This document shows positions 17,138 through 37,603 of a stretch of DNA of 64,000 bases, one piece after another. Each line of letters begins with the position of its first letter. Position 1 is the first letter of the stretch. This DNA is from Bacillota bacterium (GTDB lineage: Bacteria; Bacillota; Clostridia; Peptostreptococcales; Anaerovoracaceae). Below the pieces are notes generated by a model. That model was not told where the DNA came from. It saw nothing but the letters and a program-made list of their open reading frames with translations, and ran no database searches. The stretch is from NCBI GenBank assembly GCA_017437745.1, contig JAFRYI010000010.1, positions 1 to 64,000 of the forward strand, read 5' to 3'. The translations under genes and the position numbers were made by a program.

Positions 17138-17197
17138 GATGAGCAAAGGCGTTCATCTCAGGTGTTTTTGGGCACCGGGATGGCGCTTTTTTCTTTT
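17138..17197 (+). promoter_or_regulatory. Hexaloop hairpin overlapping a terminator: predicted ANTAR-controlled leader of pyrG
   Basis: Hairpin: GATGAGC (17138-17144), loop AAAGGC (A at position 1, G at 4), GTTCATC (17151-17157). The 3' arm and loop instead pair with downstream bases to form a terminator (17145-17190: AAAGGCG with CGCTTT, ATCTC with GGGAT, GGTG with CACC) followed by TTTTTTCTTTT. The two folds exclude each other. This is the architecture of ANTAR-protein antitermination; binding would stabilise the hexaloop hairpin and allow read-through. Confidence 0.65.
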
Positions 17198-17231
17198 GTA
17201 AGGTTTCGTCTTACCGGAACGGAGGATCGCT

Positions 17232-18830
17232 ATGACAAAGTACATATTCGTTACAGGCGGCGTTGTCTCGGGCCTTGGCAAAGGCATCACGGCCGCTTCC
17301 CTGGGGCGTCTTCTTAAGGCGCGCGGCCTGAAGGTGGCCGCCCAGAAACTGGACCCGTACATAAACGTCGATCCCGGGACCATGAGCCCCTACCAGCACG
17401 GCGAGGTCTTCGTTACCGAGGACGGCGCGGAGACCGATCTGGACCTCGGGCATTACGAGCGCTTCATAGACGAGGACCTTAACAAGTACTCCAACCTTAC
17501 CACAGGCAAGGTCTACTGGAACGTGCTCAACAAGGAAAGACGCGGGGAATATCTGGGATCCACCGTGCAGGTGATACCGCACATAACCAACGAGATCAAG
17601 GATTTCGTTTACAGCGTTGGAAAGAAGACCAACGCGGACGTTGTCATAACGGAGATCGGCGGAACGATAGGCGACATAGAGTCGCAGCCGTTCATAGAGG
17701 CGGTAAGGCAGATATCGCTGGAGGTGGGCCGCGAGAACAGCCTGTTCATACATGTAACTCTGGTCCCCTACCTCAGCGGCTCGGAGGAACATAAATCAAA
17801 GCCGACCCAGCACTCCGTAAAGGAGCTGCAGGGCATGGGCATAAACCCGAACATAATAGTCCTGCGCTGCGACAGACATCTGGAGCCGTCCATCTTCCAG
17901 AAGATAGCTCTGTTCTGCAACGTAAAGCCGGACTGCGTAATAGAGAACATCACGGTGCCCAACCTTTACGAAGCGCCGCTGATGCTGGAGGGCTCGAACT
18001 TTTCGGACGTGGTCTGCAGGGAGCTTGGTATCACAGCGCCCGAGCCGGACCTTTCCGAATGGCAGGAGATGGTGGACCGCATAAACGGAGCGCGCTCGCA
18101 CTGCGTCGAGATAGGTCTGGTAGGTAAATACGTGGGTCTTCACGACGCTTACCTTTCGGTCGCGGAGGCTCTGCACCACGCAGGCTTCTACCACAACGTC
18201 CACATAAACATCCACTGGATAGATTCCGAAGAAATAAAGGAAGAAAACGTTTCCGCCATGCTCGGCGGACTGAACGGAATAATAGTTCCGGGAGGTTTCG
18301 GAAGCCGCGGAATAGAAGGCATGATACTTGCCGCGAAGTACGCCAGAGAGAACGACATCCCATACTTCGGGATATGCCTCGGCATGCAGATAGAGGTCAT
18401 AGAGTTCGCAAGGAACGTGGCGGGCATAGCGGACGCCAACTCCGGAGAGTTCGACGAACAGTGCAGAAACAAGGTCCTGGACTTCCTGCCTGGGCAGAAC
18501 AACGACATAGACAAGGGCGGCACGCTGCGTCTGGGCGCCTATCCCTGCGAGATACAGCCGGGAACCACCATGGAGCGCTGCTACGGCAGCCTTAAGATAA
18601 GCGAGAGGCACCGCCACCGCTACGAGTTCAATAACGATTACAGAGAGATACTTCAGAAACGCGGCATGTGCCTGAGCGGCATCTCGCCGGACGGAAAACT
18701 GGTAGAGACCATAGAACTTACGGACAGGCCGTTCTTCGTGGGCGTACAGTACCATCCGGAATTCAAGAGCCGTCCCAACAGGCCTCATCCGCTGTTCCTG
18801 GGCTTCATAGGAGCCGCGATGAAAGGCTGA
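17232..18830 (+). CDS. pyrG: CTP synthase
   Basis: 532 residues, full length. The N-terminal amidoligase domain starts [23 protein letters not shown] (P-loop, residues 3-25) and contains [16 protein letters not shown]; the class I glutamine amidotransferase domain has the nucleophile Cys in FGICLGMQ (near residue 379) and HPEF near 513. It converts UTP to CTP with ATP and glutamine. GGAGG precedes ATG 17232. It is separated from guaA by its own promoter and leader. The leader does not start with the G-run used for Bacillus pyrG attenuation; it shows a hexaloop hairpin/terminator switch, linking CTP synthesis to nitrogen supply. Confidence 0.97.
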
Positions 18831-18854
18831 CAGTCCTTACGGATGGCTGTCAGC
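18826..18854 (+). other. Inverted repeat shared by the ends of two convergent genes
   Basis: GCTGACAG (18826-18833) and CTGTCAGC (18847-18854) with TCC/GGA pairing inside; it covers the pyrG stop and the stop of the ANTAR gene. It lacks a T-run in both directions, so it may only weakly end or stabilise the transcripts. Confidence 0.5.
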
Positions 18855-19434
18855 TGTAAGTCCGTATTATTTCTTCAGCTATTTCTTTTCTGGATATGCA
18901 GCGGTCCATCGCCTGCTTTTCTATGTAGCGGTGGGCCTGCGGCTCGTCCATCTTAAGTTCGGAGATCAAAAGCCACTTGGCGCGGTTGACTATACGGATC
19001 TCCTCCATCTTTTCCTCTACGGACAGGGTCTTCTTTTCGAGTCTTCTTAATCTTTCCCGCGCGCTTTCCATCCAGTCCAGCGCGATCTCGACCAGCTGCC
19101 GCGACAGCGGTCTGGGCAGCACGAACACACCGTGCTCGGATACTTTGTCGAAGACCTCGTCGTATGATTCATTGCGCACCAAAAGCAACACCACAACGCC
19201 TTTGGTATTGCCAAGATCTATCGCGAATCTGATACCGGGATCGTCCGGAAGCGGCGAGTTGATTATGACAAGATCGTACGATCTGTCGCTCCAGCACCGT
19301 TTTGCCGCGCTGATGTTGGACACCACCTTGACCGGCTGGCAGCGCGATCCCTCGAGCAGCTCAGAAAGCGCAGTATTCAGTTTTTCTGCCGCGGAGACGA
19401 CAAGAGCACTGTAAGTACGCTCTTTCAGATCCAT
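18850..19434 (-). CDS. ANTAR-domain RNA-binding regulator with degenerate receiver domain
   Basis: 194 residues. Residues about 8-118 resemble a response-regulator receiver, but the strand that normally carries the phosphorylated Asp reads YDLVIINSPLPDDPG, with Asn instead of Asp. A coiled-coil linker (ESARERLRRLEKKTLSVEEKM) leads to a C-terminal three-helix ANTAR domain (IVNRAKWLLISELKMDEPQA, then IEKQAMDRCISRKEIAEEII), which binds hexaloop hairpins in leader RNA and prevents termination. It is the last gene of the PEP-protein/glutamate synthase/glutamine synthetase operon, 18 bases after glnA. Hexaloop leaders stand before its own operon and before glnN, pyrG and glmS. Control is probably by ligand or partner protein rather than by phosphorylation. 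Confidence 0.88.
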   Translation of the reverse strand: MDLKERTYSALVVSAAEKLNTALSELLEGSRCQPVKVVSNISAAKRCWSDRSYDLVIINSPLPDDPGIRFAIDLGNTKGVVVLLLVRNESYDEVFDKVSEHGVFVLPRPLSRQLVEIALDWMESARERLRRLEKKTLSVEEKMEEIRIVNRAKWLLISELKMDEPQAHRYIEKQAMDRCISRKEIAEEIIRTYS

Positions 19435-19452
19435 ACAAGATCCTTCCTGTGT

Positions 19453-36290: not shown

Positions 36291-37474
36291 CCACTCCCAA
36301 CATGCATTACGCGGATCTTAAGGATTCCTATCTTTTCTTCCACATAGCCCGAAAGACCAAGGCCTATCTTGAGGCCCACCCGGGGACTCACCTTTACCGC
36401 ATGGGCATAGGTGACGTTTCCCTTCCCCTTTGCGGCGCCGTAATAAAGGCGCTCCATGAAGCAGTGGATGATCAGGCGGCTAAGGAGAGCTTCCACGGCT
36501 ATGTATCCGAATTAGGGCTCCCGGAGCTTCGCGCGGCCATTGCGCAGCACTACAGAGAAAGAGGTATCGGCATTTCCGATGACGAAGTGTTCGTTTCCAG
36601 CGGGGCGAGCGACGAACTGGGAGACATACTGGATCTTTTCGACAGATCCAGCAGCGCGCTTATTACAGAACCTGCCTACCCCGCCTATGTGGACGCTAAC
36701 GTCATAGCCGGAAGAGAGATAGTCCGCCTTGCGTCCGGAAGGGAGAACGGATTTCTTCCCTCCCCGGACCAGGGTACGAAGGCGGATATCATATACATTT
36801 GCTCTCCGAACAACCCCACAGGAGCGGTCTTCAGCAGACAGCAGCTTAAGGAATGGGTGGACTTAGCGAACGCGAATTCTTCCGTCATACTCTTTGACGC
36901 GGCCTACGAAGCGTTCATAGAAGATCCGGAACTTCCGAGAAGCATCTTCGAGATCGAAGGCGCAAGGACCTGCGCCATAGAGATATGCTCTCTGTCCAAG
37001 ACGGCGGGCTTTACAGGGACAAGGCTCGGCTACACCGTCATACCTAAGGATCTGATCAGGAAAGGAATGTGCTTCAATGATATGTGGATACGCAACCGGA
37101 CGACAAAGACCAACGGCGTGTCTTACATCATACAGAAAGGCGGAGCCGCGGTATTTACAGCAGAAGGACAGCGCCAGATACGCGAAAACATAGAGTTTTA
37201 CAAGGAAAACGCGCGGATACTGATGGGCGCCCTGGATAAGACAGGTATATGGTACTGCGGCGGAAAGAACGCCCCGTACATCTGGCTGCGCTGCCCGGAC
37301 GGCATGGGAAGCTGGGAATTCTTCGACCACCTCTTAAACGAGATACAAGTCGTCGGGACTCCCGGGGAAGGCTTCGGAGCGTGCGGAGAAGGATATTTCA
37401 GGTTCTCCACCTTCGGCAGCCGGGAAGACACGATCGAGGCGGCGGAAAGACTGATCGGGCTTCTTGGAAGATGA
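36287..37474 (+). CDS. dapL: LL-diaminopimelate aminotransferase
   Basis: 395 residues of the PLP fold-type I family, making LL-diaminopimelate from tetrahydrodipicolinate and glutamate in one step. MGIGDVSLPL (residues 39-48), FHGYVSELGLPELRAAIA, CSPNNPTGAVF (near 165) and SLSKTAGFTGTRLGY with the PLP-binding Lys (near 238) are as in known DapL. The ATG overlaps the dapF stop by 4 bases. Last gene of the glnN operon. Its need for glutamate fits the nitrogen theme. Confidence 0.94.
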   Translation: MTTPNMHYADLKDSYLFFHIARKTKAYLEAHPGTHLYRMGIGDVSLPLCGAVIKALHEAVDDQAAKESFHGYVSELGLPELRAAIAQHYRERGIGISDDEVFVSSGASDELGDILDLFDRSSSALITEPAYPAYVDANVIAGREIVRLASGRENGFLPSPDQGTKADIIYICSPNNPTGAVFSRQQLKEWVDLANANSSVILFDAAYEAFIEDPELPRSIFEIEGARTCAIEICSLSKTAGFTGTRLGYTVIPKDLIRKGMCFNDMWIRNRTTKTNGVSYIIQKGGAAVFTAEGQRQIRENIEFYKENARILMGALDKTGIWYCGGKNAPYIWLRCPDGMGSWEFFDHLLNEIQVVGTPGEGFGACGEGYFRFSTFGSREDTIEAAERLIGLLGR

Positions 37475-37511
37475 ACCTACGCGGAAGGACCTTAGGTCTG
37501 CAGAATTACGG

Positions 37512-37541
37512 TTGACAGAAAGCCTTTACGGGGTGCATAAT
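37512..37541 (+). promoter_or_regulatory. Promoter of glmS
   Basis: TTGACA (37512-37517), 18 bases, CATAAT (37536-37541), with TG before the -10. Start near 37548. Confidence 0.65.
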
Positions 37542-37548
37542 TACCTTG

Positions 37549-37603
37549 TTAAAGGCAATGGCGTCTATAAATTTACTGATTTAGGGACGCCTTTTTTATT
37601 TTC
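37549..37603 (+). promoter_or_regulatory. Hexaloop hairpin overlapping a terminator: predicted ANTAR-controlled leader of glmS
   Basis: TTAAAGGC, loop AATGGC (A at 1, G at 4), GTCTATAA. The alternative terminator pairs GGCGTCTATAAAT with ATTTAGGGACGCC (one mismatch) around TTACTG and ends in TTTTTTATTTT. No glmS ribozyme core is present in this short leader. Confidence 0.68.

Follow-up and report, generated by a model that had tools for sequence, protein, structure and literature searches.

The 64,000-nucleotide stretch of DNA analyzed here (the window) corresponds to C22:1-64000 in a Bacillota genome of 1.63 Mb (G000; 98% complete, 23 contigs). It carries five leaders in which a hairpin with a six-nucleotide loop (hexaloop) overlaps an intrinsic terminator, located before pyrG, before an operon for glutamate synthase (GOGAT), glutamine synthetase (GS) and an ANTAR protein, twice before glnN, and before glmS. 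A single predicted ANTAR-linked hexaloop/terminator regulon for glutamine synthesis and use, with pyrG and glmS among its members, is well supported by our comparison of genomes, and we consider it likely that the five leaders are single-hexaloop ANTAR antiterminators under the control of one ANTAR protein.

Five hexaloop hairpins share an arm with intrinsic terminators

The pyrG leader (17138..17193, plus strand) forms GATGAGC[AAAGGC]GTTCATC, where brackets enclose the loop, and follows a sigma-70 type promoter (TTGACA, 17 bp, TATAGT; 17103..17131, plus strand) that was recognized by sequence and promoter scoring. On the minus strand, the GOGAT-GS-ANTAR operon has the promoter TTGACA, 17 bp, TATTTT (28363..28391) and the leader GAAGC[AAAGGC]GTTTC (28296..28344). 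The glnN promoter (TTGACA, 16 bp, TATAAT; 28447..28474, plus strand) is followed by two hexaloop/terminator modules in series. Site 1 (28480..28531, plus strand), TAAAGGC[AACGGC]GTCTATA, has one A.A mismatch and overlaps a 14-bp terminator stem, and site 2 (28561..28610, plus strand), AAAAGGC[AAAGGC]GTCTTTT, overlaps a second, imperfect terminator. Finally, the glmS promoter (TTGACA, 18 bp, CATAAT; 37512..37541, plus strand) precedes the leader TAAAGGC[AATGGC]GTCTATA (37547..37598, plus strand), which likewise has one A.A mismatch and overlaps a terminator. Covariance-model E values were 0.008 for pyrG (model R1), 4.6e-4 for the GOGAT leader, 1.2e-8 for glnN site 1 and 2.6e-7 for glmS.

The hexaloops lie at 17145 (pyrG), 28334 on the minus strand (GOGAT) and 28571 (glnN site 2) for AAAGGC, at 28490 (glnN site 1) for AACGGC and at 37557 (glmS) for AATGGC, and all five have A at loop position 1 (A1) and G at position 4 (G4). 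By sequence and by folding (minimum free energies of −16.1 to −26.9 kcal/mol), the 3′ arm of every hexaloop hairpin doubles as the 5′ arm of a terminator hairpin that is followed by a U-rich tract. The distance from the −10 box to the loop is 13 nt for pyrG, 15 nt for glnN site 1 and for glmS, and a longer 28 nt for the GOGAT leader; glnN site 2 is inside its leader. The original prediction, made from the sequence of the window, had described five hairpins with these loops and the A1/G4 pattern before these genes, each overlapping a terminator, together with an ANTAR protein encoded in the same island, and all of this proved accurate. The ANTAR gene is the last of the GOGAT-GS unit and the only one found in the genome (a single PF03861 match, 62.4 bits against a cut-off of 27.3).

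A glmS ribozyme was considered as a candidate for the glmS leader and was rejected, as an Rfam search returned no family at gathering score anywhere in the window. A sixth, weaker site of the gltB type (E 0.001) lies outside the window, before a gene for a CorA-like magnesium transporter on contig 12 of G000 (115393-115443; L135). No promoter is clearly in place before it, and none of the matches in the genus's other 10 genomes was recognized as its counterpart.

The full loop core, not A1/G4 alone, exceeds chance

The A1/G4 rule by itself gave 11 cases in the window against a mean of 6.2 in 20 dinucleotide shuffles, two of which reached 11, and is thus not significant. Therefore, we relied instead on a fuller core, on orthology and on co-occurrence. 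With the core GC[AANGRC]GY, a stem of at least six pairs and a terminator all required, the window yielded four cases and each of the 20 shuffles none. Note that glnN site 2, with its imperfect terminator, was missed by the script used for this shuffle test and by the scan described below, and the covariance model reports it at E 3.6e-6. A plain sequence pattern allowing two mismatches, applied to the window's own genome, gave 53+25 matches versus 46+42 for a reversed control and was uninformative beyond exact matches.

We then scanned the window and 80 ANTAR-bearing loci for hexaloops overlapping terminators, with the loop left unspecified. Among the 1610 candidates, the loop ranking was AAAGGC (57), AACGGC and AAGGGC (11 each), AATGGC (10) and AAAGAC (9). 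The core AAN-G-[GA]-C closed by [AG]GC and G[TC] selected 97 training sites from these candidates, derived from 47 of the 81 sequences; other A1/G4 loops (AAAGGT, AAAGGA) were excluded from this set and are present in the counts from orthology-chosen leaders given below. The stems of the 97 sites belong mostly to one of two classes, GGC[loop]GTC (glnN, and glmS of the window) and GAGC/GGGC[loop]GTTC (split gltB, and pyrG of the window).

Hairpin and loop bases are conserved in orthologous leaders

For an assessment that does not specify the loop, leaders were chosen from the 81 sequences by orthology of the gene behind them (split gltB, the gene for a PPDK_N-domain protein, or glnN) and by a promoter with at least 10 of 12 consensus bases (n = 76); a further 18 orthologous leaders without such a promoter were left unscored. 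A hexaloop hairpin with at least five contiguous pairs, located 12-18 nt past the −10 box, was present in 64 of the 76 leaders, compared with 4.6 expected after shuffling. In these 64 hexaloops, A1 occurred in 62, A at position 2 (A2) in 63 and G4 in 62, and the two closing pairs GC..GU in 62. Position 3 was free (A 43, G 12, T 6, C 3), position 5 was G in 58, A in 4 and T in 2, and position 6 was C in 56, T in 4, A in 3 and G in 1. The original prediction had named loss of the hairpin and loop bases in related genomes as the outcome that would count against it, and these counts show them largely kept.

The 12 leaders that were missed comprise four glnN leaders with an AANGGC loop and one A.A mismatch, found in the window and in the genomes closest to it, three longer GOGAT leaders of the window's group, two (L058, L090) with an AANGGC loop and a broken stem, and three (L067, L079, L087) that show no hexaloop. 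By orthology alone, a site precedes glnN in 42 of 46 cases, gltB in 33 of 44 and the PPDK_N gene in 4 of 4, and is rare before glnA (6/71) and amtB (1/23); the latter two genes are mostly interior to the two units in the 12 loci whose gene order was mapped. Across the stem of the hexaloop, 91.7% of cells are paired, with a covariation score of 0.51 compared with 0.24 for shuffled and 0.04-0.18 for slid alignments, in sites that had been preselected for stems and with one identical row merged in the pair count.

A single hexaloop is positioned at the start of the transcript

A promoter with at least 10 of 12 consensus bases was found at 71 of the 97 training sites, compared with 2 of 97 after shuffling, and its spacer was 17 bp in 61. 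The −10 box and the loop are separated by 14-15 nt at 57 of the 71 promoter-bearing sites. Transcription usually starts 7 nt after the −10 box, so the hairpin would span roughly +2 to +22, and this spacing leaves no transcribed room for a further hairpin upstream. The loci from whole-genome searches contain 132 distinct sites, found by a scan that required overlap with a terminator, and 18 of them repeat window or training loci. Among the other 114, such a promoter was present at 69, in 59 cases at 13-16 nt, a distance bounded by a promoter search whose reach for −10 boxes ended at about 22 nt before the loop. No good promoter was found in place by this search for purF (2 sites), guaA or the pyrG of genome G483.

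Published ANTAR targets are dual hexaloops, P1 and P2 (PMC3369931, PMC8164766; published work is cited here and below from the parts of its text available to us). It could therefore be argued that the leaders are canonical dual targets with an overlooked upstream P1, which recruits the protein, and a P2, which antiterminates. Longer leaders in other families of the order (L141, L145) and the 28 nt in the GOGAT leader of the window are in keeping with this view. However, the short spacing at the 57 strong-promoter sites does not accommodate a P1. Moreover, a second A1/G4 hexaloop is not in excess, occurring upstream at 7 of 125 unique sites and downstream at 7 of 125, within the range of 0-14 seen for other loop types. 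We consider overlooked dual targets very unlikely. The tandem P1/P2 arrangement is absent from the leaders, which look like a natural one-hexaloop version of the ANTAR target. On this point, the original prediction did not hold, since it had equated the hairpins with NasR and EutV sites, which are dual hexaloops, and those found here are single and mostly at the transcript start.

Genomes with the motif usually carry an ANTAR gene

Covariance model R1 was run on whole genomes in three overlapping sets, made up of 393 genomes from the class, 247 from the order and 120 from the family. In the class set, a match at E ≤0.003 was found in 65 genomes, of which 62 have an ANTAR gene, compared with 154 of the 328 genomes without a match. 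After removal of the window's genome and of seven genomes whose fetched loci have DNA in common with the training loci, 57 matching genomes were left, and 54 of these have an ANTAR gene (Fisher p 6e-13, uncorrected for phylogeny). At E 0.01, matches occur in 30 genomes of the order set, 22 with ANTAR (102 of 247 overall), and in 12 genomes of the family set, nine with ANTAR (41 of 120 overall); all six genomes of the family set with E under 1e-4 have an ANTAR gene. Note that most ANTAR-positive genomes of the class set (154/216) have no motif match.

The ANTAR protein has an altered receiver

The ANTAR protein of the window (194 amino acids; 18850..19434, minus strand) was identified by Pfam and alignment, and in its receiver-like domain the phosphoacceptor position is occupied by Asn59. 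Among solved structures that contain an ANTAR domain, its best sequence matches are 1s8n (putative antiterminator), 1qo0 (AmiR), 6wsh (response regulator) and 4akk (nitrate regulatory protein), the first, third and fourth of which we take to be Rv1626, EutV and NasR. Its nearest named relatives (82-95% identity) are encoded by metagenome-assembled genomes labeled Bacillota, Clostridia or Firmicutes, and goat omasum is the source of two of these. The acceptor position is Asn in 81 of 81 aligned sequences, including that of the window, and the phosphorylatable Asp of a EutV-type two-component regulator is therefore missing from all of them, which makes EutV-type activation through receiver phosphorylation unlikely. 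The single ANTAR-linked regulon of the original prediction gains support from comparative genomics, and activation in the manner of EutV does not.

Because the receiver lacks this Asp, the input to the ANTAR protein is probably a partner protein or a ligand. In 74 of the 81 sequences, that of the window included, the gene immediately before the ANTAR gene is glnA, for type I GS (19453..20661 in the window, minus strand; Pfam), and the remaining seven extend no more than 555 nt upstream. Given this constant neighbor position and a receiver that is unlikely to be phosphorylated, GS is our first candidate for the input, offered tentatively and as a guess, with the AmtB-PII fusion encoded behind glnN as the second.

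Evidence weighing against ANTAR control

Several observations weigh against the proposed control of these leaders by the ANTAR protein. In Enterococcus faecalis, both hexaloops are required for antitermination (PMC3369931), and the leaders described here have one. Furthermore, a simple response to nitrogen starvation does not predict that makers and users of glutamine are raised together. Their joint movement would suggest control by glutamine demand or flux, not by nitrogen starvation alone.

The co-occurrence of motif and ANTAR gene also has exceptions. A match without an ANTAR gene is seen in three genomes of the class set (G332, G454, G502), in 8 of 30 matching genomes of the order set and in 3 of 12 of the family set. 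About half of the order-set and family-set exceptions are without the loop core, which is absent from the matches in G009, G047, G103, G181 and G202, as it is from the match in the ANTAR-bearing genome G107. The core is present and no ANTAR gene was found in G220, G279 (before purC), G151 and G209 (before eutA, as judged by eye), G332 and G502 (before purC). In addition, among 59 stretches fetched for model matches, 40 contain a site by the strict rule and 19 contain none.

We also hand-mapped from an alignment the 11 EutV residues reported to contact RNA or studied by mutation (PMC8934654), with all 11 EutV letters in register. In favor of ANTAR control, K149, E160 and M172 of EutV are identical here (K153, E164, M176), and K143 and K147 are Arg. 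Against it, Y164 is replaced by His168, as in AmiR, and R142, R168, N173, R175 and R177 are replaced by Ile146, Glu172, Asp177, Cys179 and Ser181. The triple change N173A/R175A/R177A abolished binding by EutV (PMC8934654). As these five contacts are not kept, the loop may be recognized somewhat differently from the way EutV reads it.

A final difficulty concerns the terminators. If the leaders were ordinary, constitutive 5′ terminators, the likeness among their loops could result from the terminator arms and from pairing with the U-tract, and the terminator folds of 116 sites agree with this explanation in that the partner of loop base 4 is C in 74 and U in 34, and U is the partner of A1 in 72 and of A2 in 78. 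Since loop positions 4-6 and A1/A2 also pair in the terminator, part of the conservation need not reflect a protein. However, position 3 is free even though it is flanked by the fixed positions 1, 2 and 4, and the 5′ arm of the hexaloop hairpin covaries with the 3′ arm. It would also be hard to explain why a constitutive terminator should recur in different genera behind a strong promoter and ahead of genes of central metabolism, and we give constitutive termination little credence.

Glutamine makers and glutamine users carry the element in other genomes

Several sites can occur in one genome, and at the 132 sites the next gene, assigned by similarity to proteins of the window, is glnN (47), split gltB (23), amtB (11), glnA (7), pyrG (7), the PPDK_N gene (5), purC (4), purF (2) or glmS (2), with one site each before asnB, guaA, purB, dapL and dapF and 19 sites without a window homolog. 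NCBIfam models matched above their cut-offs for purC (4), purF (2), purB, guaA, asnB, dapL, dapF and the pyrG genes outside the window's genus (4). Thus, purine, asparagine and diaminopimelate (DAP) genes join pyrG and glmS as site-bearing genes in other genomes. At the 19 sites, purA, nifH, a xanthine permease gene and three genes for NADP glutamate dehydrogenases (gdhA) scored above cut-off. Below cut-off were four long glutamate synthase fragments, a GlnQ-like ABC ATPase, an amino-acid permease, a GatD-like amidotransferase (two sites) and a CorA-like transporter, and four sites had no reading frame in reach.

At loci L151 and L154 (G151, G209), the hexaloop site precedes a gene that by eye resembles eutA, and the ANTAR search found no ANTAR gene in either genome. 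At L227 (G332, 6% contamination, no ANTAR match), two tandem sites precede a gene for a GatD-like glutamine amidotransferase (lipid II amidation).

The original prediction had included pyrG and glmS among the targets, and both assignments gained support. Sites before pyrG occur in five genera, namely that of the window (G000, G023, G291, G295) and those of G036, G483, G499 and G467, and include both stem classes. Within the window's genus, 8 of 11 genomes yielded a pyrG gene and the site is kept in 4 of the 8; pyrG is without a site in G297, where by eye it follows the apparent end of dapL, and in G289 and G296. The pyrG leader of G292 (L212) is longer and has the hexaloop AATGGG on a GGGC/GCCC stem, with A1 and G4 kept, and is possibly an intermediate or dual-type site. 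For glmS, the site is present in 5 of 5 genomes of the genus in which the gene is complete and 93-100% identical, with bases changed in stem and loop and A1/G4 kept. It is absent where glmS is 51-52% identical (G292, G289, G297), and the sequences of G293 and G296 end before the start of the gene. In G297 and L035, such a distant glmS directly follows the ANTAR gene.

The nature of these targets also bears on the possibility of ANTAR-independent attenuation by a small molecule or nucleotide, with an RNA that senses glutamine, CTP (cytidine triphosphate) or an amino sugar. The targets are largely glutamine enzymes, and in other Firmicutes glmS is classically under the control of a ribozyme and pyrG under CTP-dependent attenuation, which speaks for such an explanation. 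However, what is conserved amounts to a hairpin of some 20 nt and a short signature in its loop, genes of quite different products stand behind the same element, ANTAR co-occurrence is strong, and the window holds no Rfam family at gathering score. We regard small-molecule attenuation as highly improbable.

Proposed mechanism

For the favored ANTAR-controlled antitermination, we envision that transcription starts at or just ahead of the hairpin, so that 5′-GC[AANGRC]GU-3′ would be the first structure to form in the emerging transcript. With the ANTAR protein unbound, the 3′ arm of the hexaloop hairpin would re-pair downstream to form the intrinsic terminator, and the gene would be off. Binding of the ANTAR protein to the loop through A1 and G4 would hold the hairpin, block the terminator and permit the gene to be read. 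As the last gene of an operon that its product would control, the ANTAR gene might reinforce its own expression. One ANTAR protein could in this manner set GOGAT, type I GS (GS-I), type III GS (GS-III) and AmtB-PII together with the glutamine users PyrG, GlmS, PurF and AsnB.

Gene organization of the window

The gene pyrG, for CTP synthase, occupies 17232..18830 (plus strand; Pfam, NCBIfam). On the minus strand, the GOGAT operon begins with the PPDK_N gene (25712..28300; Pfam, NCBIfam), whose 861-amino acid product has PPDK_N as its sole recognized domain, and continues with split glutamate synthase genes (20686..25696; GXGXG, GltD-like, FeS, FMN domain and GATase; Pfam), glnA and the ANTAR gene. 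The PPDK_N gene also heads the operon in three near relatives (L032-L034), and among the more distant loci whose gene order was mapped, most have split gltB at the head. On the plus strand (28652..37474; Pfam, NCBIfam), glnN, for GS-III, is followed with short gaps or overlaps by amtB-PII, purF, asnB, dapF and dapL, which we take from this spacing to be one transcription unit. AmtB and PII are fused in a single reading frame of 574 amino acids directly behind glnN (30770-32494). The composition of the units given in the original prediction thus required correction, as the GOGAT unit starts with the PPDK_N gene and glnN is trailed by these further genes. The gene glmS, for glutamine--fructose-6-phosphate transaminase, follows at 37619..39442 (plus strand; Pfam, NCBIfam). 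Elsewhere in the window, long reading frames overlap on opposite strands at 10740-12716 (plus) and 10800-12722 (minus), the former without a Pfam match at E 0.001.

Relation to known ANTAR systems

Predicted ANTAR targets in ammonia assimilation and ANTAR-GS/GOGAT clusters in Clostridium were already known. The names pyrG and glmS are absent from the available main text of PMC3369931, and we found no account of single-hexaloop leaders or of these nucleotide and amino-sugar ANTAR targets among the papers listed by full-text searches of the openly accessible literature; some gltB, glnA or glnN sites of this kind may be listed in subscription journals or in the supplement to PMC3369931. The minimal binding site has been redefined as one hexaloop, with both still needed for antitermination in that system (PMC8934654). 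The natural sequences described here test this proposal and show a would-be one-hexaloop switch.

If the regulon is as proposed, the many uncultured Clostridia of gut and rumen in which the element occurs would have a unifying RNA-based circuit for nitrogen control, and the range of ANTAR targets would widen from nitrogen acquisition to the synthesis of nucleotides and cell-wall precursors, which are large consumers of glutamine nitrogen. It is possible, though we do not at present lean toward it, that the leaders represent a distinct class of ANTAR switch, with the hexaloop at +1, an ANTAR protein that acts without phosphorylation and is signaled to by the GS encoded beside its gene, and a Clostridia-wide glutamine-economy regulon that includes CTP, purine, asparagine, DAP and amino-sugar synthesis.

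In the AmiR-AmiC system of Pseudomonas aeruginosa, the receiver-like domain of AmiR is controlled by a partner protein and not by phosphorylation. AmiR resembles the protein described here in being an ANTAR protein and in having His at the position of EutV Tyr164. AmiC, however, is an amide-binding protein, whereas the conserved neighbor here is a glutamine synthetase.

The EutV/EutW system and eutP-type leaders of E. faecalis share with the present system an ANTAR protein, an A1/G4 hexaloop whose formation excludes an intrinsic terminator, and several leaders per genome (PMC3369931, PMC8934654). The differences are that the E. faecalis system requires two hexaloops with a short linker and has a receiver that is phosphorylated at Asp54 (PMC3369931, PMC8934654), whereas the leaders studied here have one hexaloop, which in most cases begins the transcript, and the receiver has Asn at that site; moreover, the five EutV RNA contacts discussed above are not kept.

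Like the window, the predicted regulons of Desulfotomaculum reducens and D. acetoxidans place ammonia assimilation genes behind several ANTAR leaders per genome, with glutamate and glutamine synthases, ammonium transporters, PII and nitrogenase among the targets (PMC3369931). Unlike the case here, the model there is a dual hairpin, and the available regulon section names no pyrG, glmS, pur, asnB or dap targets (PMC3369931). For NitR of C. acetobutylicum and the GOGAT-ANTAR cluster Clo1313_2030-2036 of C. thermocellum, a leader RNA element is not described in the available text (PMC4676874). As in the window, however, the ANTAR genes there are clustered, and are co-expressed, with GS/GOGAT genes, and an ammonia-responsive antiterminator has been proposed for these ANTAR proteins, with antisense RNA also cited (PMC4676874).

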